The position numbers and the translations under genes are program-made. The notes under the pieces are model-generated. The model saw only the letters and a program-made list of their open reading frames with translations. It was not told where the DNA came from and ran no database searches. From assembly GCA_018398765.1 (NCBI GenBank), contig JAHBMJ010003326.1, positions 79,560 through 109,559 on the forward strand: a stretch of 30,000 nt of DNA, read 5' to 3'. This document shows positions 145-29,509 of this stretch, piece by piece. This stretch comes from Chromera velia. Its lineage: Eukaryota > Sar > Chromeraceae. Numbering within the stretch: position 1 is the stretch's first letter; the number at the start of each line of letters is the position of its first letter.

Positions 145-1535
145 CCTTTCTGAGCGGTGCAGCCTGTGCACATCGTGAAAGAAGAGCACTGGGAGGCCGG
201 GCAGTAGTCGTCATTCTCGGGTTTGAAGCAGCTGATACCGTCTTGGCAGTCCTTGCAGAGCCCCACAAAGTTGCTTCCTTCAATGCAGGTCTGGGAGGAG
301 GCGCACCTGCAAAAGGAAAGGAAGACAAACATTTGACAAAACACATGCACGCGTGCACCCATCCAAACACACACAGAGACAGTGAGAGCGAGAGAGAAGG
401 GACAGGAGAGGTGGGGTAGGAAGGAGAGAGAAGCTCTGATACGGGTTCACTTTAGAAAGTGGCAAGTTGGAAAGAGCACAGCTGACGCTGAGGGAAAAGG
501 AACGGCTGGATGAACGCGGCATCGAAGTGATTCCGAGCGAGGAGAGAGCCGCCGAAGAAAAGGCCAGTAGCTCTCGCAGGTGCGTGCGTAAAAGGAACTT
601 CAAAGGGGGAGGGGCGCGTCGAAACAACCGTCACAGAGAAGGAATGGAAAGACAGAAACAGACAAGGGCGTGCTCACTGACCATCCGCAGCCTTTGTTTT
701 GAGCACAAGAAGAGCAAGTGTCGAATTTGGAGCACTGGACAGCCGGACACTTCTCGTTCGGTTCCTTCGACAGGCAGCCCTGCCAGTTGGAGCATTTGGA
801 GCCCTTCCCATTCACGCACATCTCTCCAAAAGTGCTGGTAGGACCGCATGTCCCCGTCTCGGCACACCACCCGCAGCCCTTACCGCTCCTCGCACACTCG
901 TCACACGTGCTCCCACTGCAGGTTCTGCAGGAGTCGTCTCCGAACATCGACATGCCTCTGTCGAAGTTCCAGCACTCATCCTTGGTGTAACCCGTGTCTC
1001 TCTTCGGGCCGAAGGTGTTACCTGCAATGGAGTGGTGAGAGAAGAAAGAATGCGGCTGTCGCTAGTGCTGTCGGGGTAACTCGGTAATGCCTGGGCTCAG
1101 AGAGACGCAGAGGGTCAGTGGGACACGGAAGCGAAGTTAGTAGAATGACGCGAGCCAAGGATGTGAGCAGGACGGCATTTAGAGAGGAACATAGACTACA
1201 ACTAGACAAACGAAAGCAGACGAAAAGGAACACGGACGGTCAGATACGGAAATGTCGTCAGCGGAGGAACGAGAGACGGGAATGCACACAAAGGACGCAC
1301 ACGAGACGTGCATGAGCTCGAGTGCAACAAGTGCAACATCAAAGAAGAAGCTCCATCCTCCCCACGTACCTGGAACGCAAACTCCGGTCTTTCCGTCGCC
1401 ATACCAGCCACAGCCTCCAAAGATGCTCTTGTTCTCCTTCAAGCAGCTGCTGCAGCTGCTGGAACGGCAAGAGTCAGGTTGTCCTGAAACTGACTGTCCA
1501 CAGAGACAGAGAACAAGGAACAACAGAAATCGCAT
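145..1535 (-). CDS. Secreted cysteine-rich protein with PSI-like repeats (5' part, gene continues off left edge)
   Basis: Three exons fit on the minus strand: 1535-1370, 1021-682 and 306-145, with donors GTACGT, GTCAGT and GTAGGT and acceptors ending in TTGCAG. Phases agree at both joins (1, then 2), and the last donor leaves phase 2 toward a further exon outside the window. About 222 residues are visible. The protein starts MRFLLFLVLCLCGQSVSG, a clear signal peptide with likely cleavage before QPD. The mature part has at least four cysteine units of the type C-x2-C...GCGWC...C, for example CSSCAQNKGCGWCASSQTC, which forms only after the 682/306 splice. This resembles PSI (plexin-semaphorin-integrin) or EGF-like extracellular modules, so a secreted or surface role is likely. 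No transmembrane segment is seen in this part. Function beyond that is unknown, and the family name is tentative. Confidence 0.72.
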
Positions 1536-2303
1536 CGTGCCCTTATGCAGGATCAGAGTAAAAGTAGAATCTGAGGGGAAGAAAACTCTTCAAAGCGAAT
1601 GGAATCAGTCGTAGGAATCGTACGGGAAAGTCTCTCCCTTGAAGTCGTCACAAAAGGTTTTCAAAAGTGTCTGGACGATTCTATCCATCAGAATTCGTCA
1701 AAGAGAAAAGCAAAGGTCTTCGATCACCCGCCAGTCAATCCTATCAAGCTGATGACGAACAAGAGTTCAAGCTGACAGAGTGAGTCGTACAAACGTATTC
1801 AAGGTGCATGTCGTTGAACAACTTATCGTCTGCAGTGACTCTGCTGGCCTGGATCTGTCATGATGCTCTTAATTGAGTTTGTGCAACGCGCATGCAGCCA
1901 TGCAGCTATAGCCATCCTATATGTGTTGCAACACGACTGGTGGCCCCGGAAAGCGCGCTCCGTGGCACAGAACTTGCGGATTCGAGCGACCCCGGAAAGC
2001 GAACTTTTTACTAAACTGCATACGCACTGTTGCGCAGCAAAACGGTGTGTTGCTTCACATATATATTCTTCTCTTTTTTGGGAGCTTCCTCCTTCTCATT
2101 CTCACTTATCCATCGTAGACCGTCAGAGCGACTGAAAATAGGAATCATTAACGGTTCTTTGTTACCCCTTTGCGCTTCTTTGGTGGTGTTGCAAAGTGTT
2201 GTTAACCTGTTGCAGCGTGCTGCTTTGAAAGAAAGACTTCACTTTCCGACTGTGTGAATCCGACATTTGACCTTCCGCCTGTCTTGCATCGTTTTGTCCC
2301 TTC
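1536..2303. other. Intergenic region
   Basis: This holds the 5' flank of the minus-strand secreted protein gene, followed by sequence with no convincing coding frame. Short open frames around 1860-2260 have no recognisable motif and no splice support. I see no clear promoter element. Confidence 0.5.
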
Positions 2304-2439: not shown

Positions 2440-3208
2440 TCGAAAAGGGAACAGACAGTGATGTCATCCTTCTCTGCCGTCTTGGGGCTGACGTCAACGG
2501 ACTTGTGGAGGCGCCAGAGGACGACAGACAGTCCACTGGAGAAAGACGGACCCTTACAGAGGCAGCTACTTATCTGGCGGCAAGGAAAGGATCTGCGGAG
2601 GCAGAAGGAGGGCTGGTCTTTCTGGGGGCTCGTGTCGAGCTCATTGACTCCCGTGGGTAGAATCCGTTCATGTCTGGGAAGTGCTGGGTTCATTCAGATC
2701 CTCTTGGCGGTGGGCACTGGAGTCGAGGGAGTCGGGACGAGGAACGAAACCGAACAAAACCCGATACAGACGAAACCACTGCTCTCATGTGCGCATGCTT
2801 CAGTGGACACCTGCAGGTTACCGTAGCCAGAATCCTCTTAGAATCGATGCAAACGTGAATTCTGTGAGTCATGATGGGGCGAGAGCCCTCATGGAGGCAT
2901 CATTGAGCGGCCACCTGGAGGTCGTGAAGTTTCTTCTTGAAAAGAATGCCGACACAAATGTTGCCGCTTCAACCGGGGAGAGAGCTCTAACGTTTGCCTC
3001 CGCCAGAGGGCACACAGAAGTTGTCAGAGTCCTTTTGGACGCGGGTGCAGACGTCCATGCGCGTCAGAAAGGTAACTCAGCGCTAGATTTGGCGTGTAGG
3101 GGGGGGTACACTGAAGTCGCCCGGCTTCTCTTGCAGGCAAACGCTGAGATTGATATGGAAGGAAACGTTGGCAGACTGCCACATAATCACACAATGTCAT
3201 CTAAGTGA
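2440..3208 (+). pseudogene. Ankyrin-repeat protein remnant with broken frames
   Basis: Ankyrin units are readable on the plus strand but not in one frame. The first part (about 2440-2647) contains LGADVNG and ATYLAARKGSAEA. A possible intron (donor GTGGGT near 2648, acceptor CAG at about 2767) leads to ETTALMCACFSGHLQV. After RILLES near 2843 the frame must change to reach DANVNSVSHDGARALMEA. From there three units run cleanly, with cores SGHLEVVKFLLEKNAD, RGHTEVVRVLLDAGAD and GGYTEVARLLLQANAE, to a stop at 3206-3208. Ankyrin repeats mediate protein-protein binding. The shift at about 2840 and an extra two codons before RILLE do not look like an intron, and no proper start codon is visible, so decay is more likely than an intact gene. 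A sequencing indel is the alternative. Confidence 0.6.
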
Positions 3209-3779: not shown

Positions 3780-4338
3780 GAGGGCATGACAGCAACTCGA
3801 GTTGCTAGTCGAGTTTGCAGACGCGCAGTATTTTTTTTTTAAGTGTTGTGGAATTTTCGAGCTGTGTAGCTGGCTGCTGCTGTACGTGCTGTAATTGAGT
3901 TCGATCATGTTGTATGCATACATGCCGGCATGCACTACCCCCCATGGCATTGCATGCGAGAGCGTCCGCGTTTGAGTTTCACTTATCTTCAATGCTTCAC
4001 CCTTGCACAAAAAAACTCGAGTTTGTTTAAGTTGTTTATGAAGAAAAATTAATGGAACAAAATCATTGAAATTCGTCGTGCGCATCTTCGATCGACTGCA
4101 AAAAAACTTTAAAGGAGGCTGTAAAAAATACAAAGCCATCATTTAAGGCCTAACATTAGACTATCAGTGAGTCTTGTAGTAGTGACTAATAAACGCTAGA
4201 AATCTTCTATCTTTTAATGTTTTATAATCAGAATTCAAAGCTAGATTCAAAGTTTGACTGACAGTTCGAATCGAACGCTAAATCGAACGTGGCATTTAAG
4301 TTCTAATCCTAGAAAAAGACGAATGCCAGTGATTATTA
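3780..4338. other. AT-rich intergenic sequence left of the foldback element
   Basis: Composition becomes AT-rich after about 3820, with A/T homopolymer runs and no coding frame that can be supported. Confidence 0.6.
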
Positions 4339-4810
4339 GTGACCATGTTTAATTTGATTTGATTTGATTTGAGGTAGGGCTTAAGCTCAAATCAAATATC
4401 CAGTCAAAGAGGACCTAGTGTTTAAAGACCTATCAAATACGATCAAATATTTGATCAATATGACTTTCAACCTCAAATATGAAGGTCCCGAAAAAACTTT
4501 TGCAAGTACCAATCCGTCACGCATGCTGATTCAAATGAAAAAACCTAAATCTTGATGGTTTGCTCTCAAAAAAAAAACGTTTTGAGCTGCACTGAAATTA
4601 ACGTTTCACCCCCTTTTACTTCATGCAGAGGTAAACCGATCAGCTGAACGTTTTCCCGAACAGCTGTGTTGACTTTTCTGGTGCTGGAACATCTTTTACG
4701 GCCCCTTTTTTGAGCGTCTGCAAACATTTTACACCCTGTAAAGACATGTCACACAATCCGACAGGGTCGAACGGGAAGAAAGAGGCATTTGTTTTTAGAG
4801 CCGGGTACGC
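4339..4810 (+). repeat. Left inverted-repeat arm
   Basis: It matches 5376-5851 in reverse complement. It begins with GTGACCATG and TTTGA pentamers and ends at CCGGGTACGC. It carries the first half of the gene-like fragment described separately. Confidence 0.85.
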
Positions 4811-4973
4811 GGAAAATTCATGGTCCGTGCAAAAAGGGGCAAATGTGATTCAGTGTCAGGTGAAAATACAAGGAGCCGAGGGGGAAGGAGAAACTATTTG
4901 TGGCTGTGAGTATGCAGCAGCGGCAACCAGTTCTTTTCATGTCAGTGGTATAATCACTAGTGACCATGTTTGA
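4641..4973 (+). pseudogene. Gene-like fragment inside the foldback element
   Basis: An open frame after a stop near 4632 reads through the left arm into the unique centre. It includes VCKHFTPCKDMSHNPTGSNG, AFVFRAGYAENSWSVQKG and a Cys/Ala-rich ETICGCEYAAAATSSFHV. It has no ATG at its start. The part up to RAGYA is mirrored in the right arm; the rest is unique. It looks like a captured host-gene 3' part or a relic of the element's own protein. I do not recognise the family. Confidence 0.4.
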
Positions 4974-5375
4974 TTTGATTATATTTGATTTGATTTGATT
5001 TGAGCTTCAACCTCAAATATTTGATATTTGAGGTAAGATTTGAGGTTAACCTCTTAGGGTTCCTCTCTGAGTCACTAACTTACTAGCTGTCATTCTGATC
5101 ATTTTTCTCATGACAATAGTTATCAGAACATTTCTGATGTGTGTTTCAAAAATTTAAAAAAATATATATAAAATTATAACTTATCACTTCCGTAAAAAGA
5201 ATATGCCTGTGTTGCAGTGTATATACATTAGTCACTGAGACTCACTCTAGTACTAATAGAGATTAAGAATGTAAAATTGATAGATTTGAAATTGCATATA
5301 ACTTTTTGTTAATACGATAAAGTTAGAGCACATACTAAAATTGAGGTGACAATCACTCAGCTTTATATTTTTTTT

Positions 5376-5851
5376 GCGTACCCGGCTCTAAAAACAAATG
5401 CCTCTTTCTTCCCGTTCGACCCTGTCAGATTGTGTGACGTGTCTTTACGGGGTGTAAAATGTTTGCAGATGCTCAAAAAGGGGGCCGTAAAAGATGTTCC
5501 AGTACCAGAAAAGTCAACACAGCTGTTCAGAAAAACGTTCAGCTGATCGGTTTACCTCTGCATGAAGTAAAAGGGGGTGAAACGTCAATTTCAATGCAGC
5601 TCAAAACGTTTTTTTTTTGAGAGCAAACCATCAAGATTTAGGTTTTTTCATTTGAATCAGCATGCGTGACGGATCGGTACTTGCAAAAGTTTTTTCAGGA
5701 CCTTCATATTTGAGGTTAAAAGTCATATTGATCAAATATTGATCGTATTTGATAGGTTTTTAAACACTAGGTCCTCCTTGACTGGATATTTGATTTGAGT
5801 TTAAGCCCTACCTCAAATCAAATCAAATCAAATCAAATCAAACATGGTCAC
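5376..5851 (-). repeat. Right inverted-repeat arm
   Basis: This is the reverse complement of the left arm, with scattered differences (for example GACGTGTC against GACATGTC). It ends with five CAAAT units and CATGGTCAC, followed by the TA target copy. Confidence 0.85.
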
Positions 5852-5853
5852 TA

Positions 5854-6665
5854 GCGCCATCACCATCCATATCCAGAACTAGCTGGATGCTTTTAACGTT
5901 AGGCAGGGAAAAGTTGTACAACATTATTTTTTAGGATGCCACGCTACACTGCCTAAATCAACACTTCAAATCAAATTTAAAGTTTCAATCTCTGGAAAGG
6001 CATGCTTCTTCATCAAAGCTGCTAGCTCCTAGGTAAGGGTCTTCCATCCAACCTACTTCACCTGAGAATAATTAAACATAACTAGAAAGAAAATAAAAAT
6101 TAAATGAATTGATTTCAAGTTTATTAAGCTTTAAAAAAAATCCTCTATCAAATCTTGTACTCCCCCCCTCAGGCTCCCCTCTCGGAGACCTCTCCTTATA
6201 ACCAATGCCTAAAATAATTGGCGGCAACTTGTGTTACAACTATAGTGTTGCAAGCAGTTTTGTTTATTTTAATTGGTTTTCATATAACCTATATAAGTAA
6301 CAAAGAATCTATACCATTAATTGTCATACTCAGTCGCGGTTTCAGACCGGGTTTCTAAGAAATTTTCAGGCTTTTCTAGCCAGGATTAGCCACGTCAACT
6401 TGATATAAAATTTGATATTGGCTGCTTTTGCTAGGATGTTTAATTTAAATAAAATATTAAAAATTCCATAACAATTAAATTTTTTTGACAATCAATTCTA
6501 GCCGGATTCTTTGCGGTTTAGTCTACTACTAGTAGTGAAAGTATTGATAGCAGAATCATGTGCAAACTTTCCGAAAGTGATGCAAAAGTTTAAGTTCAAG
6601 AAGTTCGTAAATCATTCCACTGTTTGAATTTAGAGGTCCATATTCATCTGTCTTCTTTTTTTTTG
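5854..6665. other. AT-rich intergenic sequence right of the foldback element
   Basis: There is no supportable coding frame. It ends at the stop codon and 3' flank of the cyclic-nucleotide-binding gene. Confidence 0.6.
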
Positions 6666-7021
6666 TCACCGTGAAGGTGCCACAATGCTAGGAGCCCTGT
6701 GGCTGACGATTGAAGCCCTGGAGCTGCTGTCATATGAAGCCTTGAAGCGCTCTTTTTGGATCAACTGCAAATAGACATGCGTGTGTGCAGGGGAACGTGA
6801 ACAGAGACGCCAGAAAGGGCAAGAGGACAAATTCTCGTGTTCAAAAAAGAGCGGACAGGCAGACCGACAGGAAGATTGATGCACAGACAAAGAGATGATC
6901 AGGCAGACAGAAGGAAACTCCATGGGGCAGTCAGATGACCAGATAGGCTGACTGACACGACTGCAGATAAGCAGACGGAAAGACAATTGAATAGACTGCG
7001 AGATATCGAGAGAGAGAGAGA

Positions 7022-15848: not shown

Positions 15849-17315
15849 ATGAGTTCTGATCTCTTTTCTTTTCAGTCGGGCCTCGAGGGAGGGTGGCATG
15901 ATGGAGAAGCTCGACTCCTTGCTGCAATTGCCAGAAAAGGGAGCGCTCCGAGTAACCGTTTTTTGCAGAGAGCGGCAGAAGAGTGCAGGATGTGTGAGAT
16001 GGGCAACGGGGAAAAGGGGATTGGGCTGTTCGCTTCCAGGGACATTCAGGCTGGGCAGATCATCATGATGAGGTGAGCTCACGTAAACTGGGTGAAGTAG
16101 ACGAACTGCTTTGGCACCCCGTTTTGGAATTGGCTTCATTGCGCATTCGCTGACGTGCGTGCAGGTGGCCGATGTCAGTGGTTCCCGTCTCCGTCAGTTT
16201 GTGCCGTCTCTTTGCACCCCCCTCGCCCTTCCTTCTGTTTCTTCTATTTCCGCCTCCGAGTCATGGAATCTCCGTCTTTGCTTCCAGATTTCTCTCTCTG
16301 AGTGCACGCTGCTGTTTAGCTCTCCTCTCTCTCCGTCCCCCCCCCCGATTCGCCTTCTTTTCCGCCTTCAATGCGTTACAGAATGTTAAGATTAATAATT
16401 ATCGATTTACATGTGGAAACCTTTGAACGACCGCGTTTGGATGTGCTCTCAGGAAACCAACAAGGAGCGTGCAGAGTTTATGGAGAAGTTTTCCCCGCCG
16501 GCAGACGGAGGGAGGGGGGTCGGGGAAGGGTCGGAAGAACGATCTGGAGTCTTCCTGGAGGCAGACGAAAGAAAGCAGGAAGGGAAGAAGAGTGGTATAA
16601 AAGACGCAGAAGAAGATGAACAGGACACAGAGGAGGTAGAGAAGGGAGAATTAGAAGAAGAGGACGAGGAAGAGACATTTCTTGAAAGGGTTGACGTTGC
16701 CCGTCTTTGCCTTTCTCTCGTGTCCAAAATCGTCAAAAGACGTGCCCTCTTCCCAGAGCTGTCTAACGCTCCCTTCCTGCAAGTGCTCCCCGCCCTCCAA
16801 ATACTGCAGCCCAGAGAAACGGAACAAGAATGGAAAAGGAAAAGCAGCGCCAGTGAGACCCCACCAGAAGAATTCACATGCGGATCTCCCTCCCTGGATG
16901 CGCACCTGGAAAGGGAGCTGGAGAGGGCTGGAGCCCAGACGAAATACGAACAGCAGAGGTTTCTCTGGGCAGTGGCGTTGAATGCGATGGGGACCTATCC
17001 TGGAGGTCCGGAACAGCTGAGCCATGCCGAGCAAGTTGGCGATTCGGCGGGGGAGGGTGAGGGGGTGGGGCTGTTTGACTTCCCGTCTCTGTTCAATCAT
17101 TCGTGCCAGCCGAATGTGAACCGCTATTTCATGGGACTTCGGAGGGAGCTCTCGGATAAATTTGGAATGTCAGTGGGTGAGAAGACATTTGGGCGTGCAT
17201 TGGGGAAAGGGAGACAGATGAGAGGCAACAGAAAAGGGGAGAGAGGCAGAGGAAGAAAGGGCGTCGATGATTGTGACTCTGTGTGTGTATGTGTGTATGA
17301 CTTTGTATGCGACCA

Positions 17316-17355
<40 letters not shown>

Positions 17356-18950
17356 TGTGTGTGCCCGGGCGCATCTTAAATTGCTGGACAATGAAGAATA
17401 GCAAATCCCTCCTCCCCGCGTCCAGTTCCCCACTTTCTTTCTCTGCATGCAGCCGGAGGGGGGAAGAAGACGGGGAAGAAGCAGATGGTCCCAGGGAACC
17501 CCTCGCCATCTTCGTCGCTTGCCGTGACATCTCTGCGGGGGAAGAGTTGTGCATTTCCTACATCGAGTCTGAGGTCTTGTGCGAGGACAGGACAAACAGG
17601 GGGGAGGCCTTGCAGGAGGGGGCGAAGGGCTTCACATGCGGATGTCCTGCGTGTCTGCGGGAAAAGGAACAGCTGAGGCTGATTCAGAGAGGGAAAAGGA
17701 TTGAGGTGCGGACGTGAGTTTCAGGCAGAGCCAGGCGGACTACGAATGAGAGAGACAGGGACTATCTTCATGGCTCTACTGTGACTGACGGGGTAGGAGA
17801 CCGATGAATGCAAAGGGGGAGTGAGGGCTGGAAAAGAGCTGTCAAGAATTATACTACCAATGAGCTTCTTGTCGGTCTGTCTAGTCCAGCAAGGGCTTCG
17901 AAGAGTTTACTCACTGCATTTGTGAGCCTGCGAATGCGCAGGTTTCTTGCCTCCCCTCTCCTTCTTGCCTGCAGACCGTTCGTTCCCCTTTGGTTTTACA
18001 GTCGCTCTAAATCCTCCCATCATTTTTTCTCTTCTCTTCCCCGTCTTTCCAAAAGAAAAGAAGCTTGGAAGACCTCCTCCTTTTTTTTCGTGGTGGCCTG
18101 TCTCTCCCACGTCCGGGTATCTGCATCTCCGTGGTGATTTGTTCTCTCTTGTCTTGTCTTGTATGTGAGTGCTCAAGTCTTTGCGTGAGTATGTTAAGAA
18201 GTCGATTCTTCTTTCTTCGCACGCACCCGACTTGACGTATTGCAGCAGGTTAGCTCCCCCGTCTCCTACGAGCCCCTTCCAGATGAGATCAAGGAAGTCC
18301 TAAGCCTCCCCTCCCCCCCCCAGGATCGAATTCGCTTAATCGACCAACTCCTTGCTGAAGTAGCTCAAGGGGACACGGACACACAAACACGACCACGAGA
18401 TAGCAAACAGCCCAAAAGACTTCTCGCCACCGCAGATCACCTCGAGCTCCTTCAGACGAGGGCGCAGTTGCGAGCCTTGTTGCTGGCACGTGCCTCCACC
18501 AGAAAAAAAACGAAAGGTTCTCAGGCAGCCAAGCGGCAGGGGGTGGACGAAGAACAGTCTGACAACGATCTGCAGTCCGCACGGACCTTAGCACACCAGT
18601 ATTTGCAGGACTGGCGGGATTGTATATCCTTCATTGAGGGTCGTGCTTCATCTTCGCCAAATGCGCCTCCACCTAACCGCAGAGGCCCCGGTTTCCCCCC
18701 GAACGAGGAGAGTCTCGTAGTGTTCCATCTGCAGGCTTCCAGAGGTGCAACTGCACTCGCAAGTCTGTCGCCCGACGTCGAGACAGAGACCTTTGAGAGG
18801 GCGTCGAAGAAGAAGAAGAAAAAAAAAGATGACGAGGGGGCTCCAGAGAAAAAGGGGGGGAAGTTAGAGGGTCTGGCAGAATGCATGGAACACTTGAAGT
18901 CGGCAAAACGGTCGGTTCAAGAAAGCTGTTTGGTCTCTGACCAATTTTGA
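15849..18950 (+). CDS. SET-domain protein (lysine methyltransferase-like), about 641 aa, 5 exons
   Basis: The exons are 15849-16072, 16165-16192, 16453-17168, 17453-17713 and about 18254-18950. Exon 2 is a 28-nt exon that I infer because exon 1 (phase 2) and exon 3 (phase 0) cannot join directly; it gives MMRWPMSVVPVS. Residues 54-74 (KGIGLFASRDIQAGQI) form the first SET strand pair. An acidic insert follows, then helical sequence, then the core NHSCQPNV (from 299), GEELCISY with the likely catalytic Tyr359, and a zinc-type FTCGCPAC (383-390). The layout resembles SMYD or SET-only enzymes that use S-adenosylmethionine to methylate lysine; no MYND finger is visible. The C-terminal third is helical with a poly-Lys run, which may be a nuclear signal. 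The last acceptor (GGTTAG) is unusual, so an extra exon between 17714 and 18253 is possible. Confidence 0.82.
17048..17070 (+). repeat. G-rich tract with quadruplex potential in coding sequence
   Basis: Four runs of three to five G with loops of 1 to 3 nt on the coding strand, in exon 3 of the SET gene. They encode a Gly/Glu-rich loop just before the NHSC motif. Confidence 0.65.
17315..17363. repeat. Compound (TC)n(TG)n microsatellite
   Basis: TC then TG in intron 3 of the SET gene, same composition as the repeats at 8088 and 8846. Confidence 0.9.
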
Positions 18951-20326: not shown

Positions 20327-21780
20327 ATGCAGAACATCAACCTCGCCGCTCAGGCTCAGGAGGCATTCGGGCCCAAGCGTTTCCACTGCTGCAAGAAGTG
20401 CACCGATGACATCGTTATCGGTAGGTCAAAATTTCACATAAGTACTGTAAGCTGGAAAACAGCCTGGTACGCATGACTATTTCAAGTGTTGTGTTGCAGG
20501 TCCTACTTGTGTTGCGGATGTCTGCGGTGGCCGCTCCTGCAAGGACTGTGGTTACCCTGCATCCTCCCCCACTTACATGAAGCTGAGCAACATCTGGGGT
20601 GACATCGGAGCAAAGACCCTTCCCCTCTGCAATGGATGTGCTGGCTCTATGGACGCAAGGAAGAAGCTTGGTACGCCGAGAAGGAAACAACAGTTGTTTC
20701 ACAAACGCCTGACCTTCATCTCCCTCTTGTTCTGCCATAAGTTTCCAAATCCTTTGACAAGGTACCCCGGACCCTTGAACCCCTCATACACTGTTCTTCA
20801 TGCTTCTCTCCTCGATTCCGGTACCGAGAACTCTCCTATTTTCTTCTTCTTCACCTCACATTCCTGCCTTTCCCTCCTCATTTTCTCTTCTACCTCCTGC
20901 CTGCAGAGCTCACGAAGGTCCACAAGATAATGGTTGAGACCGACAGAGGGTCCAAGCACAACTCCTCCATGACTGCCTGCCTGGGTGGGTGCGGTCAGCA
21001 GGTTCCCACCCCAGTCCTGAGAGTGAAGGATGACGGATCCGACGGAAGGCACATGACCTCTGTGTGCATCTCCTGTGCCTCCAAGAAGAACAAGTGCCAG
21101 TTCTGCCAAAAGCCTGTCGACAAGGAGGTCGACCCTACAGCCCCCCAGCAGGAGCAGGCACCAGTTGCCGAGGGAGACACATGGGGAAACATCACCAAGG
21201 TTGCCGGACAGGCCTTCGCTGCTGCCACCGACTTCACCAAGAAGAACGTCATCAAGATGGAGACACCACACGACGCCTTCACACTTCGCATGATGGCAGT
21301 CAGAGCCGTCCTCGGTCAGTCCAAGACAGATTGGCAAGTCAGTAGGTAGAGAAGCAGGCAAAAACCGTCAGAGGCTGGTAGTCTGGCAATCCCTTCACTA
21401 CCAGCATCATTCTTCTACCTTTCCTTCACCTCGATGAATAACGGCACTCTTCTTCTGTCCTTCTGTTGGGCATGAGTGCGAGCAAAAGTGGGCCATCAGC
21501 GAAGACATACAGACAAACGCAAAAGCATTTCCAAATCTCTCCTTCAATCACGGACTGCTTTGGCTCTTCTCCCTTCCCTTCCCTATCTGTTTCTGCAGAG
21601 GAGCGCCACAGAACCCCCGCAGTCGACCACACTGCCCCCGTCTCTCCCTCTGGACAGGGAATGATGGGTATGGGTATGGGCATGGGTATGGGACAGCAGC
21701 AGCAGCCGATGGTGCAGGGCCAATACGGCCACCCCGGCATGCCCCAGCAGCGCTCCCCGAAGTCCTGGGGCTGCATGTGA
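20327..21780 (+). CDS. Cysteine-rich putative zinc-binding protein, 284 aa, 4 exons
   Basis: The exons are 20327-20420, 20500-20670, 20907-21314 and 21599-21780. All junctions are phase 1 with acceptors TTGCAG or CTGCAG, and total length is 855 nt. The N-terminal part has clustered cysteines (HCCKKC, then C-x4-C-x4-C-x2-C, then LPLCNGCAG). The middle has ACLGGC (from 112) and the motif C142-x2-C145-A-x3-N150-x-C152-x2-C155, as expected for a treble-clef or zinc-ribbon site. A region with basic and aromatic residues follows. The tail is low complexity: alternating Gly-Met, four Gln, Pro/Gln-rich, ending SWGCM. There is no signal peptide or membrane segment, so it is probably cytosolic or nuclear. 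The same cysteine motif occurs in the minus-strand gene at 23886-24524. I do not recognise a named family. Confidence 0.85.
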
Positions 21781-22740
21781 GCGGAGGGAAAGGAAGCTGT
21801 ACGTGTGAGTGCAAGAAGCGTGACTTACAGAGAAAACTTGTAATAAAAGGAGGAGTGGGGGGAAGGGTAACAAGGAAAAGACGAGCGCACAGTGACATGC
21901 GCAAGAGAGGACTGAATGGCTCTTCCCGTTTCCCTTCCCCGCTGTGTCAATCATTTCATGTAGGAGAATGCCCTTCCCTGTCGAATGTACCCTCTATGCA
22001 ATGCACGAATTGATCTGCGTGTTGAGCCCGACGGTGTCACCGAATTTCCAGAATGAGCTCTGGAAACTCAGAGAACGAAACCCAAGGTCATCGAGCCGGA
22101 GTCGTCAGCGACCGCGGTGAGAGAAGACGAACCGAACAGACTGACACCGTGCGACACGAGAGAGAGAATGAATGAAATGAATGAATAGGTGCATGGATGC
22201 GTGAATGAGTGACGAAGTGATAAGTGCATGCATGAATGATGAGTGGATGAGTGTGTGCGTGATTGAATGAGTGCTAAAGAATGAAAGAGCGAGAGTGGGG
22301 AGGGGGGACATCAACCGAGAAAGCAAAAACAGCTTTCGGCCCTGCAGGCAGATCCAAAGAGTTTGCGGCCTTCCGTCTCTCGTTCGATCCCTTGCATGCA
22401 CTGCTTGTTGTCTTCCATCTGTCATGTGCGTATGTGTGCGTACACGCAAGACTGTTAGCCAACTTGAAGCAACGACGCTCATGCATCCGCAGTCCGAGCA
22501 TCGATGGACTGGGCGTTCCGCTGCAGCAGTCCGAATTCTTCTTCAAAATTTATCCTCCCTTCATGCCTACGCACGTAGACATGTTCGCGTTCCATCTCAT
22601 GCGTCTGCATAGGAATACACGCTACCATACACGCATTCTTCCGGTCAAACTGACTGTGAATGTCACCATGAGGATCGACAATGATGACGTTTTGTGGATC
22701 GACAGCGGTTTTCTTCATAGAGACCGTGACCGAAAATGAA
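21781..22740. other. Intergenic region downstream of cysteine-rich gene
   Basis: The 3' flank, then a degenerate TGAA-type repeat (22164-22275) and two TGCATGCA sites (22225, 22393). A 152-codon open frame at 22281-22739 has no recognisable domain or splice support and is not called. Confidence 0.5.
22164..22275. repeat. Degenerate TGAA/TGAG tetranucleotide repeat
   Basis: GAATGAATGAA-type units with substitutions such as GGATG and GAGTG spread over about 110 bp. Confidence 0.7.
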
Positions 22741-23885
22741 CGTATATATGAATACGTGGACCGCAAGTAACAGAATTCAGTCAAATCATCAGGGTTTATA
22801 AATCTAGTTATAAAATTCACCGGCTTTAAGTGCCTCAATTCAATAAAAATTTTCTAAAATAAGTAAATTTCATATTTTTTTATGTTTCAAAATCAAGATG
22901 AAATCACATAAGAATTTATTTGCACAGCCTGAGCTCTAGCACGCGTCGATTTAATATGCATATATTTAGGATAGTTTAGGAATGCAAAAAAAGTTTTTAA
23001 AGAATTCAATTATGTATTAACATTGTCCGAGTCGCTAAACATTTTCTCTGACATCATCTAGGACATCATAAACACTGCATGAAATCAGGCTTTAATCAGT
23101 GTTGAAAACCACTAAAAGCTGGCATTCAATAACATTTAACATCGCTAATTAATAGATCACATAGTTATTACGCGTCTCAATTTAAATGGTCACGTCTGAC
23201 GGTCTATAAGATATCCTATTGATGGGTTAAAGTTGTCTTAAACTTGATTATATTAATATATGATTATATTTATATCTATCACTATATGAATACGAAGCTA
23301 GATACGAAGTAACCTAAAGTGATGGTTCTAGTCCTAGTTCTAGTCGGATCTATAGCGTGTCTAGTAGCGTGTATACATGGACTTACTCAAATGATGATAT
23401 TAATATAAAGTTTTGATCGTACGCCGTGTGGTAATGGCACTTTAGAAACGGTAGCACCAAATTAACGCATCCCGTCAGTTTTGCTGGCAATTTTGTTACC
23501 TTAAATTTTTTCCCATTCTGCGCTGAAATCATCTGAGAAGCCGCAATACTGCTCCGAATACTGTTGAGTGGGCAGATGGCCGGGGGTTGGTCCCCAGGAG
23601 ACTTTCAGACAGCTGCATGGTGGCATCAAGGTGCTTTCCTTTGACCATTCTTTGACGGTTAGAGAAAGCACTTTGCACACAACCGTAGCTCTGAGAAAAC
23701 CGACAAAAATTCCGGAAAAGTGTTGCATTCCAAATGCTTTCAATTGTGTACCACAATCCTGAGAAGTAGAAGGAATGAACTGCGACACTCTCCTTTGAGT
23801 CCCTTCGCCTTCATGATTTGGGGAGAGGATCAAATTGAGGAGAAAGGTCCGAGGGCTATTCCCAGTCTTTCAAGAGCTAGCTAGA
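22741..23885. other. AT-rich intergenic block, then 3' flank of the small cysteine-rich gene
   Basis: About 22800-23510 is strongly AT-rich with no coding signal. 23500-23833 is GC-balanced with open frames on both strands but no recognisable protein, perhaps an old repeat. Confidence 0.5.
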
Positions 23886-24524
23886 TCATTTCAGCTTGGC
23901 CCCGCACCCACAGCATCGATTCATCTTCTTCGCACACCCATTGCACATACACATATAGTCCAATAGAGTGCTCCCTTCACCCAGACGCGGAGGTCCTTTT
24001 CTTGCAGAATCGTCCTTGCAGAAGGAACAGGACCCGCAGTAGGGGTGTTGGCACATCGGCTGGTGCTCGCACTCTGTGCAGTGCCCAGGAGACATCTGGG
24101 AAGCCTTCGTCGTGGTGTCTGGCAATTTGAACCCCTCCATTCTCTCGTGGTGCGCCTTGGCCATCCTTGCGCCTGCTTCTGCTTTGCCCGTCCGCTTCGG
24201 CTTTGCTTTGGGTACTCTGAAGTCGGAATTCTCACTCGCCTCAGCGAAGTACTCCAGGCCGATGTCTCCGAAGGTTTCTTCCAACTCCTTCCAGACCTCC
24301 AGGTCTCTCTTTGAGGGCTCCCAGTCAGCCCATCCAGCGTCCACCATCTTCTGAGCAAAGACCTTCGCCTGCGCAAAAGAGATGCTTCCCGTCTCTTGGG
24401 GGTCGAGGGATTTCCATATCTTTTTGAACAGAGGACGGTAGGAGTCGTGGAACTTGGAGAAACCGGAGTATTTCTCAGCGACGTCTATGGCGTCGTCTAG
24501 CTTTGCATCAAATTTCGACCCCAT
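23886..24524 (-). CDS. Cysteine-rich protein with degenerate EF-hand, 212 aa, single exon
   Basis: The protein starts MGSKFDAKLDDAIDVAEKY at 24524 and ends at a TGA at 23886, with no intron needed. The same frame stays open upstream to an ATG at 24767, which would add a basic 81-residue leader with the look of a transit peptide; I prefer the shorter start because the extension is not conserved in style with the body. The first half is helical and contains a loop DPQETGSISFAQ, EF-hand-like but with Gln instead of Glu at position 12, so calcium binding is uncertain. A basic linker follows. The last 70 residues hold about 14 cysteines and end with C194-x2-C197-A-x3-N202-x-C204-x2-C207, the same spacing as in the gene at 20327-21780. 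It is probably a zinc-binding adaptor. No named family is recognised. Confidence 0.75.
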   Translation of the reverse strand: MGSKFDAKLDDAIDVAEKYSGFSKFHDSYRPLFKKIWKSLDPQETGSISFAQAKVFAQKMVDAGWADWEPSKRDLEVWKELEETFGDIGLEYFAEASENSDFRVPKAKPKRTGKAEAGARMAKAHHERMEGFKLPDTTTKASQMSPGHCTECEHQPMCQHPYCGSCSFCKDDSARKGPPRLGEGSTLLDYMCMCNGCAKKMNRCCGCGAKLK

Positions 24525-25151
24525 CGGAATCAATAACTTGGGAGGACTGTTCGGTTGTCGTGCTTGAGTGTATAACTTTTCTGATCCGCCTGTTTGCGAT
24601 ACAACGGAGGACAAACTCGTGAAAGTTCCTCTTGTGTTCAGCGCACAATGATACCTATTAATACTTGCTGTCAGACAAGCGTTACGCAAGGTCACAAGGT
24701 GATCTCGTCCGATTCGCCGGAATCTGACCGCTCTGAATGAAAATCGATTCAGGCAGCATGCATGCATGCAGTGACTGACCTTTGTAACAATTCGACTGCA
24801 TGGAGCTATGCCGAGCTACCCGAATTGAGTGCGCATCCGTCTGAGCCGTCTCCTCCGTCGGATCAGCAGTCGCCAGTCGGCCTCCTCTCCACAAATGCCC
24901 CTTCCTCCAAGCATCTGGCATGAATCTGGTATTCATGTAGCCTGGGTAGAAGTCAATGGAGCTCTGGATAAAATCTCGGCAGTGGGTCGGCCAAGCCCTG
25001 CAAAAGTCAGTGTTGCAATATATTTGTCAACATATACAGAAGACGCGGCCGCGGATCGCCGTCTCCGCCCCCTGTTGTTGTAGAGTACCTGAATTAAATT
25101 GCTGTTTTGCTCCTTGCCCACTCTAACCCCGGTCTTGCGTGGTCAGATTCA
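24525..25151. promoter_or_regulatory. Divergent promoter region
   Basis: This 627-bp gap lies between the minus-strand cysteine-rich gene and the plus-strand flavin oxidoreductase gene. It contains a doubled TGCATGCA (24759-24770). If the longer start at 24767 is used, that motif would overlap the leader's start codon. Confidence 0.5.
24759..24770. promoter_or_regulatory. Double TGCATGCA (TGCATGCATGCA)
   Basis: Two overlapping copies of the palindrome, 235 bp from one start and about 380 bp from the other. ApiAP2-type word; role inferred. Confidence 0.4.
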
Positions 25152-28042
25152 ATGCGCGGGAGCCATATAACGGGGTCTCTGTTTTTTTCGTTACTGGGCA
25201 CCTGCGATGGCACTCTCCTGAACGCCTTTCATTCTCGTTGCTCTGTCCGGATGGTGTCCTTTTCCTCAAAGTGTCCGCGTCTGCTGTCGCCCTTCAGCTT
25301 GCGGGGGCTAGATTTGAAGAACCGGGTGGTCATGGCTCCGCTCACACGTTCTCGTGCGGGGTCCGAAAGAATTCCGAATGATTTGATGGCGGAGTATTAC
25401 AGACAGAGAGCGTCGTGCGGTCTGATCATCTCAGAAGCAACCACCGTCTCCCAGCAGGCCAACGGGTGGGTGGACTCCCCAGGAATTTACACGGACGAAA
25501 TGAGGGATGGGTGGAAGAAGGTCACAGAAGCCGTGCATTCTAGAGGGGGGAAAATATTTTGTCAACTCTGGCACATGGGACGGGCAGCACACAGTGAGTG
25601 GGTGAGTCAGCATGGGGGGCAATCAGCCAGACAGACAGTCTGACAGTGGCTCAGTAAGGTCCTGATGCCAATCAGTCCACACACAAGACAGTCAGGTGGA
25701 TGTTACATCATCGAAGGATGAGTCACTAAAGGGATCAGCGGCCCGGAAAACTTCATTGTCTAACTTTCCGTTCTTTTTTTTCTGTTCTGACTGTGTGTCT
25801 GCATTTTCCGTTCTTGCGTCTCGGAGCATGACTGTGTGAGACAAGTCTGTGCCTGCAGGGGCATGAGTCCATCTTGGTCTAGAGCTCAAGCATGTCGCCT
25901 GTCGTTCTTCTCCCACCCCTCGGGTGTTCGTTCACGTGTTTGTATGCGAGTATGCATGTATATTGTTACATGTGTGTCATGTGAAAATGTTCACAGGTTC
26001 CTTCAACAATCGCGAGACCCCTGTGAGTGCGTCCTCCATTCGCATGAACGTGGAGCTCCTGAGACGGGCAGACAACAAAAAGGTGGCACCAGAGACCCCG
26101 AGAGCGCTCTCGACCGAGGAGATCCCCCATCTTATAGAGACTTACAGGAGGGCAGCTTTGAGGGCGAAAGAAGCAAATTTCGACGGGATAGAGATCCACT
26201 CTGCGAACGGGTGGGTCCATAGACAGAAGAATTCATGAGACTGATGATTCTATCGGGTGTGTCTGATCAGGTATTGCAATGAACTGGGCCCCCATCCATC
26301 TGCATGTGCAGAGTGGGTGTGTGCAGAGTGGGTGGGTGCATTGAGTGAAGTGGTCATCTCCAAAATCAGGTGTGTGGGGGTGGTGGTCAGACAAAATCTA
26401 GGGCGCTGCGTTAACTGTGTGAACAGAGCAACAGCTAGTTGATTCAGGTAAATGCCACTCTGTGCTTTCTGGGTTTTTCTTTCTTTCCTTTGCTTCACGG
26501 AGACACAAAGGAGGAGAAAGTGGGGGGACACCGAAGAAGAGCGTTTTTCCAGCCCACCTTCCGTCCTTATTGCTCCTGCTGATTTTGATGTTCAAACAGA
26601 ATCAAGTTGAATCAGTGAGCAACACACCTTCTCAGAGGATTATGTGGGTGCATTTTTGGACAGCATGATTGCGCCTTGCTGTTGTATCTGATGGAAGGTT
26701 GTCACATTCTGAAGTCTCGCAATTTTTCTTTTTGTCTCGGCCTCCCTTCAATGAATGCAGGTACCTGCTCGACCAGTTCCTCCAATCCAAAACAAACCAC
26801 AGAACAGACGCGTATGGGGGGAGCCTCCCTAATCGGTGCCGGTTGCTACTTGAGATCTTTGATGCCACAGCGGCTGCCTGGGGGGACCCTGGCAGGGTGG
26901 GCGTGCGTCTGTCACCCAATGGCGGCATCAACGACATGGGATCTGAGGACTATCGGTCGGTCGGTTGGTGAAAGACCGAATGGGATGCATGGTAGATGAT
27001 GTTTGGTGCTGTGGGTTTTGTTTTGCTCTGGCTTCGTGAGTTGATCGACGATGCCGTTTTGTGCTGTTCTTTAAAAGACTTTTCTGATCGGAGTAAATCT
27101 TCTTCATTCTCTTTCGTCTCTCCCTTTTTGATCGGTGCATGTGATCTTTGAGAGAAGAATTACTGGATGGCCGAATTGCATGATTTGCTTTCTAGCCAAC
27201 GCGTTTGATCGGTGTGTCTGAAGAAGTGCCCCACCAACCAGGAGGCCACATGCAGCTGTAGGCGCGCATGTATGGTGGCCTTTGATGAATGAAGAAACGA
27301 AGCAGGAGAGCCTTTGTTTTTGCTGAATCACCTGTGGTCTTTCTACCCGTTAATTCCCTGCAGGGAAACGTTTCTCTACGCGGCATCTCAGCTGTCCCCT
27401 CTACAACCTGCCTACCTCCACGTGATGGACGGACTCAAGTTTGGCTTTCATGAGCTGGGAGAGGCAATGACACTCAAGGACTTTCGGTCGGTCGGTCGAT
27501 CCAGTGCAGTTTTGCCTGTGCCTGAATGGCCTTCCTTCCTTCCTTCCTTTGTTTCCTCTCTGTCTAATGCTTTGAGTGAAGTACGCATCGGGTTGCGCTC
27601 TGACTCGCTCGGTCTGCGCATTGCTTTCTACACATCCCGCCTGCCGGTGGAGTTGCCTAAGCCGTTGTCAAAAATCTGTCTGTCCGGTCGCATTTTGATG
27701 GCGCTTTACAATATCTGACAATCAAACAGTGCGCACACGAATCCTCATGATGTTCCATGCAGGGGTGTTTTCGAAGGGCCACTGATGGGCAATTGTGGGT
27801 ACGAACAGGAGAGCGCAGAGGAAATGATAGCCTCGGGGGATGCAGACTTGATTTCCTTTGGACGGCCTCTGATCAGCAATCCAGACCTGGTGGAACGCTT
27901 TGAAGTGGGGGCGCCACTGAACCCCCCTGCTGACGTTACTGTGTACTATGCTCTGATCGGTGAAAAAGGGTACACCGACTTCCCGACACTGACAGAGGAA
28001 GAAAAGGGCCAGATAAAAAACAATGCGGGAACAACGCTTTGA
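25152..28042 (+). CDS. Old Yellow Enzyme-family NAD(P)H:flavin oxidoreductase (OPR-like), 5 exons
   Basis: The exons are 25152-25593, 25997-26210, 26761-26955, 27364-27486 and 27763-28042, all GT-AG with agreeing phases, giving 417 residues (384 from the internal ATG at 25251). This family uses FMN and NAD(P)H to reduce the C=C bond of alpha,beta-unsaturated carbonyls, such as 12-oxophytodienoate in plants. Visible signatures are KNRVVMAPLTRSRA, CGLIISEATTVSQQANGW, QLWHMGRAAHS, IHSANGYLLDQFL with the substrate-binding His215/Asn218 pair and Tyr220, TDAYGGSLPNRCR, VRLSPNG and the FMN-phosphate segment FGRPLISNPDL, ending YTDFPTL. Length is normal for the family. The extra 33 residues before Met34 contain a hydrophobic stretch (SLFFSLLG), possibly a signal or plastid leader; otherwise translation starts at 25251 and the enzyme is cytosolic. 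Confidence 0.95.
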
Positions 28043-29509
28043 TCATAACTTGTCATACTTCTAATTTGTTGTTTTCATGAATTATTATCATCATTCATCA
28101 TCGTTATGGGACGATACATGACCGCCTAGCGTTCAGTTGGTTCGATATGCAGCTGCACACACTGCTAGGGCAGTCTTCTCCTTTGAAGGAAGGTGACACA
28201 GGCAAAAACGGTTTCCGATCCTATAACCGCTACTCATTGAATTTTTATGCTGAAACTTAGTAGAAAATTGGCGATCAAAGTGTTTTTTAAGCTAAAATTA
28301 TTGTTTAAACAGTTTTGAGTTCATCACTTAGACTATGACTTAGTTAATATTTTAAGAATGTGAGCTAATAGGATTAGGATTAGGATTAGGATTTATGTCC
28401 GGAGGATTGACCTCCCACCCCAATGCCGAATGTCCGACGTGCAGCTCCTAAGAAAAACGTCTAGACGCATCAGACCTCCCTGGCCGGCCCACACAGGTCT
28501 AGCCTGTGCTGTAAACGGTTTACAATTGAAGAAAAAGCACACACGGCATCATTTTTCCTTTATCTGAATGGCTTTCTTGTTCCGATCTGAGGCCATCTGA
28601 CAGAGGGGCAAAAGGCTGCCAAAAGTAAAATATGAGCCAATTCAGTAATCAAGCAAAAATTGAAGCAATGTAGGCTAAAATTGAGCCGATTGAGCTAAAT
28701 AGCCAACTAATTTAACATAAAAAATGATCGTAAACTAACAAGTTAGGACACATCTAGCTAGCTAACAAAATATCATAATTGGTCGATAATCATCGATCGA
28801 TTATTTGTTTGAAAGGATCCTGTTCTGTTTCTTGTATTTTTTTTTTATATGAAGGGGTTACAAAAACAGTTGCTTTCACACAAATTGTAATAAGAGATAG
28901 ACCCGATTAACAAAGAGAAAAAAAAAATTAAACAGAATAAAACAGAGAATTAAAGAAATACAGTTCACCAAATCTGACTAAAAACCAACGTCGAATGAAA
29001 ACAGAGGCGGGAAAGAAGGATCATTGCAGTAGTTTTGTACGTACTATTTTGACTATGGTTGCTGTTTTGGTATAGTGCCTCCCTGCCGTCCGCCTGCCCA
29101 AGCAGCTGCGTGGGCCCCACACAATTCCGGCTCCGTTTGTCTGTGCGCGAATCCGGTTGGGGACGCACTCATGCAGTGCGGCAGGCCGCACACGCGCGCA
29201 CGCGAAGTACGTGATCGCGCAATACAGATCCACATTTTTTTTTTTTCTTTAAAGCGCTAAAAAAATATGTATATACATCTCAATTGCATACAGAAACAGA
29301 GATACTTTCAGCTGGCATCTTCTGACCTGCACTTCTGATCGGGAGACACGTTCTTCCGCTTTGAGAGCGATCAGAGCTGTGTGACGATTTTCTTCTGTAC
29401 GCAGAAAACCCTTCAACAAGCTGTGTGCCTGAAAACTCAAAGTTTCTATCAGAATCGATCGAACCCATCCGTCCACACGTGAAGCAGAGAACGTTCGCTG
29501 TGGTCGACA
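28043..29509. other. AT-rich intergenic region
   Basis: There is no supportable gene. It contains an interstitial TTAGGA repeat (about 28370-28392), A/T homopolymers near 28840 and 28918, and from about 29060 a GC-richer stretch that is the 5' flank of the transporter gene. Confidence 0.6.
28370..28392 (+). repeat. Short TTAGGA hexamer array
   Basis: Four units of GGATTA/TTAGGA. It resembles but does not equal common telomere hexamers or the TTTAGGG heptamer. Confidence 0.75.

Follow-up and report, generated by a model that had tools for sequence, protein, structure and literature searches.

The window analysed here, 30,000 nucleotides of the Chromera velia genome (contig JAHBMJ010003326.1, positions 79,560 to 109,559 of the forward strand), contains two cysteine-rich genes, gene A on the plus strand and gene B on the minus strand, that stand tail to tail and share the motif C-x2-C-A-x3-N-x-C-x2-C. 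Judged from sequence comparison, it is rather likely that A and B are separate genes placed tail to tail by chance, each in a small dispersed family and each with a zinc module of the kind found in Slt11/RBM22 and CRIPT. The ranking of profile comparisons by hhalign (A with Slt11/RBM22, B with CRIPT), together with the low values of LIM and TFIIS controls, suggests that both genes probably use this known kind of zinc finger.

The shared motif and the relatives of each gene

A first-pass annotation, made from the sequence alone, had stated that both neighbours encode the motif, and a six-frame scan of the window confirmed this: CISCASKKNKCQFC was found in gene A at 21065-21106 (+) and CNGCAKKMNRCCGC in gene B at 23904-23945 (-). 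Two copies were thus present, whereas 300 first-order Markov runs gave 0.0 on average. The looser spacing C-x2-C-x6-C-x2-C was found three times against a simulated mean of 0.037, the third copy being CDECARSGKGCGWC at 864-905 (-), in a frame with a sub-threshold PSI match elsewhere. Such a null model sets the motif apart from random DNA; kinship of two zinc proteins that share it is not thereby shown.

The exact spacing is shared beyond the A-B pair. An RBM22/Slt11-type gene of the same genome (contig C723) contains CQSCARLKNVCQTC, whose pattern is identical to that of A and B, and the CRIPT gene (contig C3276) contains CPDCAYKKGRCSMC, with the same spacing and G in place of N. Since a conserved splicing factor encoded in this genome has the full pattern as well, the pattern alone is unfit for grouping genes. 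Within the families of A and B, the exact motif was retained in three of six A-family rows (the row from C1636 is incomplete here) and in two of three B modules, and the six-residue distance between the last two Cys pairs was found in all three B modules.

Relatives were searched for in the organism's own assembly (177.8 Mb, 4040 contigs), in which genes are spliced and match counts are lower bounds. Gene A returned at least 12 matches, four of them gene A itself. The closest relative found lies on C851 (three matches, with 49 and 62% for the Cys modules and 40% for the C-terminal part), and others were found on C3394 (two matches), C1636 (one) and C1013 (one, E=0.0026); a further match, on C1674, was disregarded at E=0.4. 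Gene B returned at least six matches. One is gene B itself and two, at 48% and 46%, are the tandem modules of a single C1470 gene; the remaining three (E=1.8-7.6) were not credited. With the C1470 protein as the query, itself and gene B were returned, and extra matches at E=0.23 and 8.9 were not credited; with C1013 as the query, itself, C1636, gene A and C851 were returned, C3394 was not, and an extra match at E=3.9 was not credited. A and B were absent from each other's lists up to E=10, and among the matches listed there was no A match on C1470 and no B match on the contigs of the A family except that of the window. Each gene is a member of its own small family dispersed over the genome.

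The gene models of A and B rest on homology. All exon joins of gene A follow GT..AG and keep the frame, and the intron of phase 1 that separates its Cys modules (before 20907) is found at the same place and in the same phase in C851 and C1636; C3394 has no break at this position. The C3394 relative (L007, reverse strand) is a 750-codon frame that encodes a tandem pair of A-like units followed by a tail rich in Pro and Gln. In the family alignments, the N-terminal exon of C851 falls in an assembly gap, the linker of C1636 is one residue short and the linker join of C1013 was guessed. The module 2 row of C1636 includes intron residues and lacks one exon piece, and a second comparison set was made without that row.

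Viral contigs were scanned with short exact patterns, giving 23 pattern matches with the B alignment and 120 with A and its C851 relative, none of which was confirmed as a relative; the same held for 51 pattern matches in prokaryote genome contigs. These non-eukaryotic collections say little on the spread of either family.

Profile, database and structure comparisons

Module 2 of gene A and the N-terminal finger of Slt11/Ecm2/RBM22 (PF21369, STL11_N) are alike in having a Cys pair, 23 to 24 residues and then C-x2-C-A-x3-N-x-C-Q-x-C. In the organism's own Slt11/RBM22 copy this reads CKIC-x23-CQSCARLKNVCQTC, and gene A has the tail after x24; the upstream pair is C-x2-C in the Slt11/RBM22 finger, whereas it is C-x3-C in gene A. 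RBM22 carries a CCCH finger and an RRM after this finger, whereas gene A has no Pfam match to either and has a first module and a tail of its own. Gene A was therefore rejected as the RBM22/Slt11 orthologue; a separate gene of the STL11_N type lies on C723. Family B and CRIPT (PF10235) are alike in four ordered C-x2-C pairs, with six residues between pairs 3 and 4 and CA after pair 3, and one C1470 module has a CRIPT-like end (CGKKL). In contrast to CRIPT, gene B has an N-terminal EF-hand-like region and an extra Cys in pair 4, and its C1470 relative has two tandem modules. The distance between pairs 2 and 3 is 11 residues in CRIPT, by the numbering in an excerpt of PMC10676203, 10 and 11 in the C1470 modules, and 24 in gene B. 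The C-terminal zinc domain of the GATOR2 subunit MIOS also resembles family B (C-x2-C, then C-x2-C-x6-C-x2-C; profile match E=0.43).

When direction and alignment were varied, hhalign gave 83, 86.5 and 94.8% for A module 2 with Slt11/RBM22, and 58, 68 and 75% for A module 2 with CRIPT. The C-terminal half of B gave 93 and 95% with CRIPT and 3 and 11% with Slt11, and Slt11 gave 75 and 67% with CRIPT. The LIM and TFIIS-ribbon controls from the same genome, a small set of two of the five TFIIS-ribbon matches and the four LIM matches, yielded 9 and 1% for A module 2, 1.5 and 1% for B, 4 and 10% for Slt11, and 2.5 and 7% for CRIPT, respectively; the highest control comparison was that of gene A module 1 with the TFIIS ribbon (31.5%). 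The same scores were compared with those of shuffled profiles (one side shuffled, Cys columns kept, 200 shuffles per run). No shuffle reached the observed score for A-Slt11 in either of two runs (0/200 each) or for B-CRIPT (0/200), and the observed score was reached by 5/200 and 4/200 shuffles for A-CRIPT, 2/200 and 7/200 for A-B, and 58/200 for B-Slt11. A profile search of the PDB placed Slt11 first for family A (E=0.14), followed by cwf5 (E=0.34 and 0.61), and CRIPT first for family B (E=0.42), followed by MIOS. For A module 2 as a single sequence, the PDB search to E=10 yielded one match, a splicing protein that carries CLTCARLKNACQCC (E=0.66); LIM matches of gene A module 1 at E=1.2-4.1 were not credited.

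Several results weigh against this assignment. The hhalign values are rough because each profile is very small (2-6 sequences, 48-71 columns); A module 2 gave 20, 20 and 60% with B, a direction-dependent spread, and the whole A family gave 6.6% with B. In the PDB profile searches, the E-values of 0.14-0.61 fall short of significance. As single sequences, the C1470 protein matched bL32 (E=0.17) and YfgJ (E=2) in the PDB and not CRIPT, and gene B gave E=0.33 with a 25 kDa calcium-binding protein and E=6.5 with a nine-heme cytochrome. PF21369 was unlisted for gene A or its 55-residue module 2 piece (up to E=10) and for any of the six family rows (up to E=1), and PF10235 was unlisted for gene B (up to E=10) and for any of the three modules (up to E=1). 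The sub-threshold Pfam matches were of other kinds: RING zf-C3HC4_3 (E=0.022) for A module 2, and zf-CXXC (E=0.018-0.023), Zn_ribbon_6 (E=0.034) and DUF2039 (E=0.19) for the B modules. The two structure models have mean predicted local distance difference test scores (pLDDT) of 41.8 and 48.7, and their zinc parts are unreliable (block pLDDT 31-37 over the zinc module of gene B). The two Pfam models do find their own members in this genome, the RBM22/Slt11-type gene on C723 at 81.9 bits and CRIPT at 46.7 bits. DUF2039 was set aside for the B module, as the own-genome search found none, though the model matched in no control genome either.

The first-pass annotation had read the pair as related but divergent modules, derived from a local duplication and later fused to different partners. 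The adjacency and the identical motif speak for this, and the A-B profile score beats 198/200 and 193/200 of the Cys-preserving shuffles, so that some distant similarity between the modules holds; this similarity may reflect a remote common finger type. Yet each gene has nearer relatives on other contigs than its neighbour (C851, C1636, C3394 and C1013 for A, C1470 for B), the profiles place A nearer Slt11/RBM22 and B nearer CRIPT, both above A-B, and gene A has three introns whereas gene B has none in its frame. A recent local duplication is not supported by anything in these comparisons, and we regard one local origin of both modules as very improbable. Convergence, by which short zinc knuckles without a common origin share the A and the N by chance on a favoured spacing, is a more serious competitor, though still an unlikely one. 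It would fit the recurrence of the bare spacing in the unrelated frame at 864-905 (-), the incomplete retention of the full motif in both families and the scatter of weak database matches over several zinc families, but A-Slt11 and B-CRIPT scored above every Cys-preserving shuffle in each run. An error in a gene model, by which one of the two frames would be no gene at all, is hardly credible: the last exon of gene A is uncertain and the models rest on homology, but the paralogues keep the Cys positions and, for gene A, the place and phase of the intron.

We therefore return to two separate genes that probably carry a known kind of finger. The inability of the first-pass annotation to name a family is borne out: neither A, nor B, nor any relative scanned has a Pfam match above the cut-off. 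Its suggestion of an undescribed zinc-binding module gives way to what is probably a known finger kind, in view of the hhalign ranges of 83-95% for A-Slt11 and 93-95% for B-CRIPT. Both modules are best described as unnamed variants of that kind.

Gene structures and other features of the window

The coordinates of both genes and their parts are compiled in Table 1. The Cys positions bear out Cys-rich modules in both genes.

Table 1. Positions of genes A and B and of their parts within the window
Feature	Position	Strand	Content or basis
Gene A	20327-21780	+	exons 20327-20420, 20500-20670, 20907-21337, 21658-21780; 272 residues
Gene A, module 1	20390-20639 (spans intron 20421-20499)	+	C22-x2-C25, C45-x2-C48, C75-x2-C78, plus C35, C40
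Gene A, module 2	20978-21106	+	C113-x3-C117-x24-C142-x2-C145-A-x3-N-x-C152-x2-C155
Gene A, C-terminal helical hairpin (residues 180-224)	21179-21313	+	two predicted helices, block pLDDT 63-78
Gene A, Gly-Met/Gln-rich tail	21658-21777	+	translation with acceptor ending at 21657
Gene B	23886-24524	-	single open frame, 212 residues and stop
Gene B, putative zinc module	23904-24080	-	four C-x2-C pairs: C149/152, C166/169, C194/197, C204/207
Gene B, degenerate EF-hand-like loop (residues 41-52)	24369-24404	-	sequence (DPQETGSISFAQ); Gln at loop position 12

In the six-row alignment of the A family, C45, C48, C75 and C78 of module 1 are invariant. An internal repeat of module 1 and module 2 within gene A is unsupported by profile comparison (1-5%). 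A CNGCA element had been noted in both genes (LCNGCA in A, MCNGCA in B) and is indeed present in both; in gene A it sits in module 1 (20628-20642), away from the position equivalent to the MCNGCA of gene B, which is part of the B motif. At the module 1 site the six A-family rows read CNGCA, CHTCN, CNQCN, CDDCK, CDDCE and CQGCK. The hairpin region of gene A has similar sequence in C851, and the rest of its single-sequence model is poor. The last acceptor of gene A is uncertain: the Gly-Met/Gln-rich tail described for it appears with the preferred acceptor and is gone with an alternative exon start at 21599, which gives a protein of 253 residues.

The four C-x2-C pairs of gene B likewise occur in both modules of its C1470 paralogue. 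This paralogue (L015/L016, frame 0), with its two tandem zinc modules, starts with MGCGAS, which resembles a lipid-anchor signal. A degenerate EF-hand had been described for gene B, which agrees weakly with the 25 kDa calcium-binding protein match and with EF-hand_1 in a 37-residue piece (E=0.16, 12 bits, below the cut-off of 25.4); all such matches are sub-threshold. In the same piece, EF-hand_6 (E=0.27) also remained under its cut-off and GPHH ranked ahead at E=0.025, and the whole protein had no EF-hand match in Pfam up to E=10. Position 12 of an EF-hand loop is acidic as a rule, and with Gln at this position and no match over a cut-off, the region is EF-hand-like at most.

Elsewhere in the window, 603-1589 (-) is occupied by Cys-rich frames; judged by eye, the second begins like a signal peptide. 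In the first, a PSI (plexin repeat) match reaches E=2e-4 and 22 bits, just under the cut-off of 23.1, and the C-x2-C-x6-C-x2-C at 864-905 falls outside this match. An ankyrin-repeat frame lies at 2648-3205 (+) (Ank_2, E=6.7e-33), a weak SET-domain end at 17301-17714 (+) (E=2.9e-4, just below the cut-off), and the N-terminal part of an NADH:flavin oxidoreductase at 25098-25640 (+) (Oxidored_FMN, E=9.3e-29), head to head with gene B. The GC content is low (35-39%) at 4001-7000 and 28001-29000 compared with 41-55% in the other 1-kb steps, possibly due to inserted elements.

Proposed zinc sites and meaning of the finding

In CRIPT (PDB 7DVQ), Cys3, 6, 83 and 86 are on one zinc and Cys58, 61, 73 and 76 on the other, according to the excerpt of PMC10676203; by this pairing, each half of the C-x2-C-x6-C-x2-C tail contributes to a different zinc. 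The tail of the modules described here, C-x2-C-(A)-x5-C-x2-C, may work as in CRIPT, with the two C-x2-C pairs of the motif on different zincs, and the interleaved two-zinc pairing of the CRIPT type is perhaps present in both A and B. Gene B would hold two zincs, one by pair 2 (C166/169) and pair 3 (C194/197) and the other by pair 1 (C149/152) and pair 4 (C204/207). For gene A, one zinc would be bound by C113/117 and C142/145. A second site would join C152/155 to an N-terminal pair (C22/25, for example), and a third would consist of C45/48 and C75/78.

The RBM22 N-terminal region contacts U6 snRNA and pre-mRNA, as stated in an excerpt of PMC8833553, and CRIPT stabilises the U12 snRNP in the minor spliceosome (PMC10676203, same excerpt). 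The zinc cores of A and B may be rigid scaffolds that bind protein or RNA, coupled in gene B to a weakly EF-hand-like helical part and in gene A to the helical hairpin and a low-complexity tail. We infer the zinc binding, the Cys pairing and the binding role from these likenesses. A literature search on CRIPT with RBM22 fingers gave nothing relevant as judged by title and the start of the abstract, and one on Chromera zinc-finger Cys-rich proteins found nothing; neither result is a claim that nothing is in print.

Going further, A and B may represent unnamed families of this lineage that reuse the splicing-factor finger type of Slt11/RBM22 and CRIPT, either away from the spliceosome or in additional factors linked to it. 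In this view A is multi-copy with an added first zinc module, and B is an adaptor with a calcium module or possibly a membrane anchor, the latter in view of the MGCGAS start of the C1470 relative; this is speculative, and we hold it to be rather doubtful. At the level of the families, the tempting local duplication of a new metal site is set aside, and two families without a Pfam name are placed near known zinc fingers.

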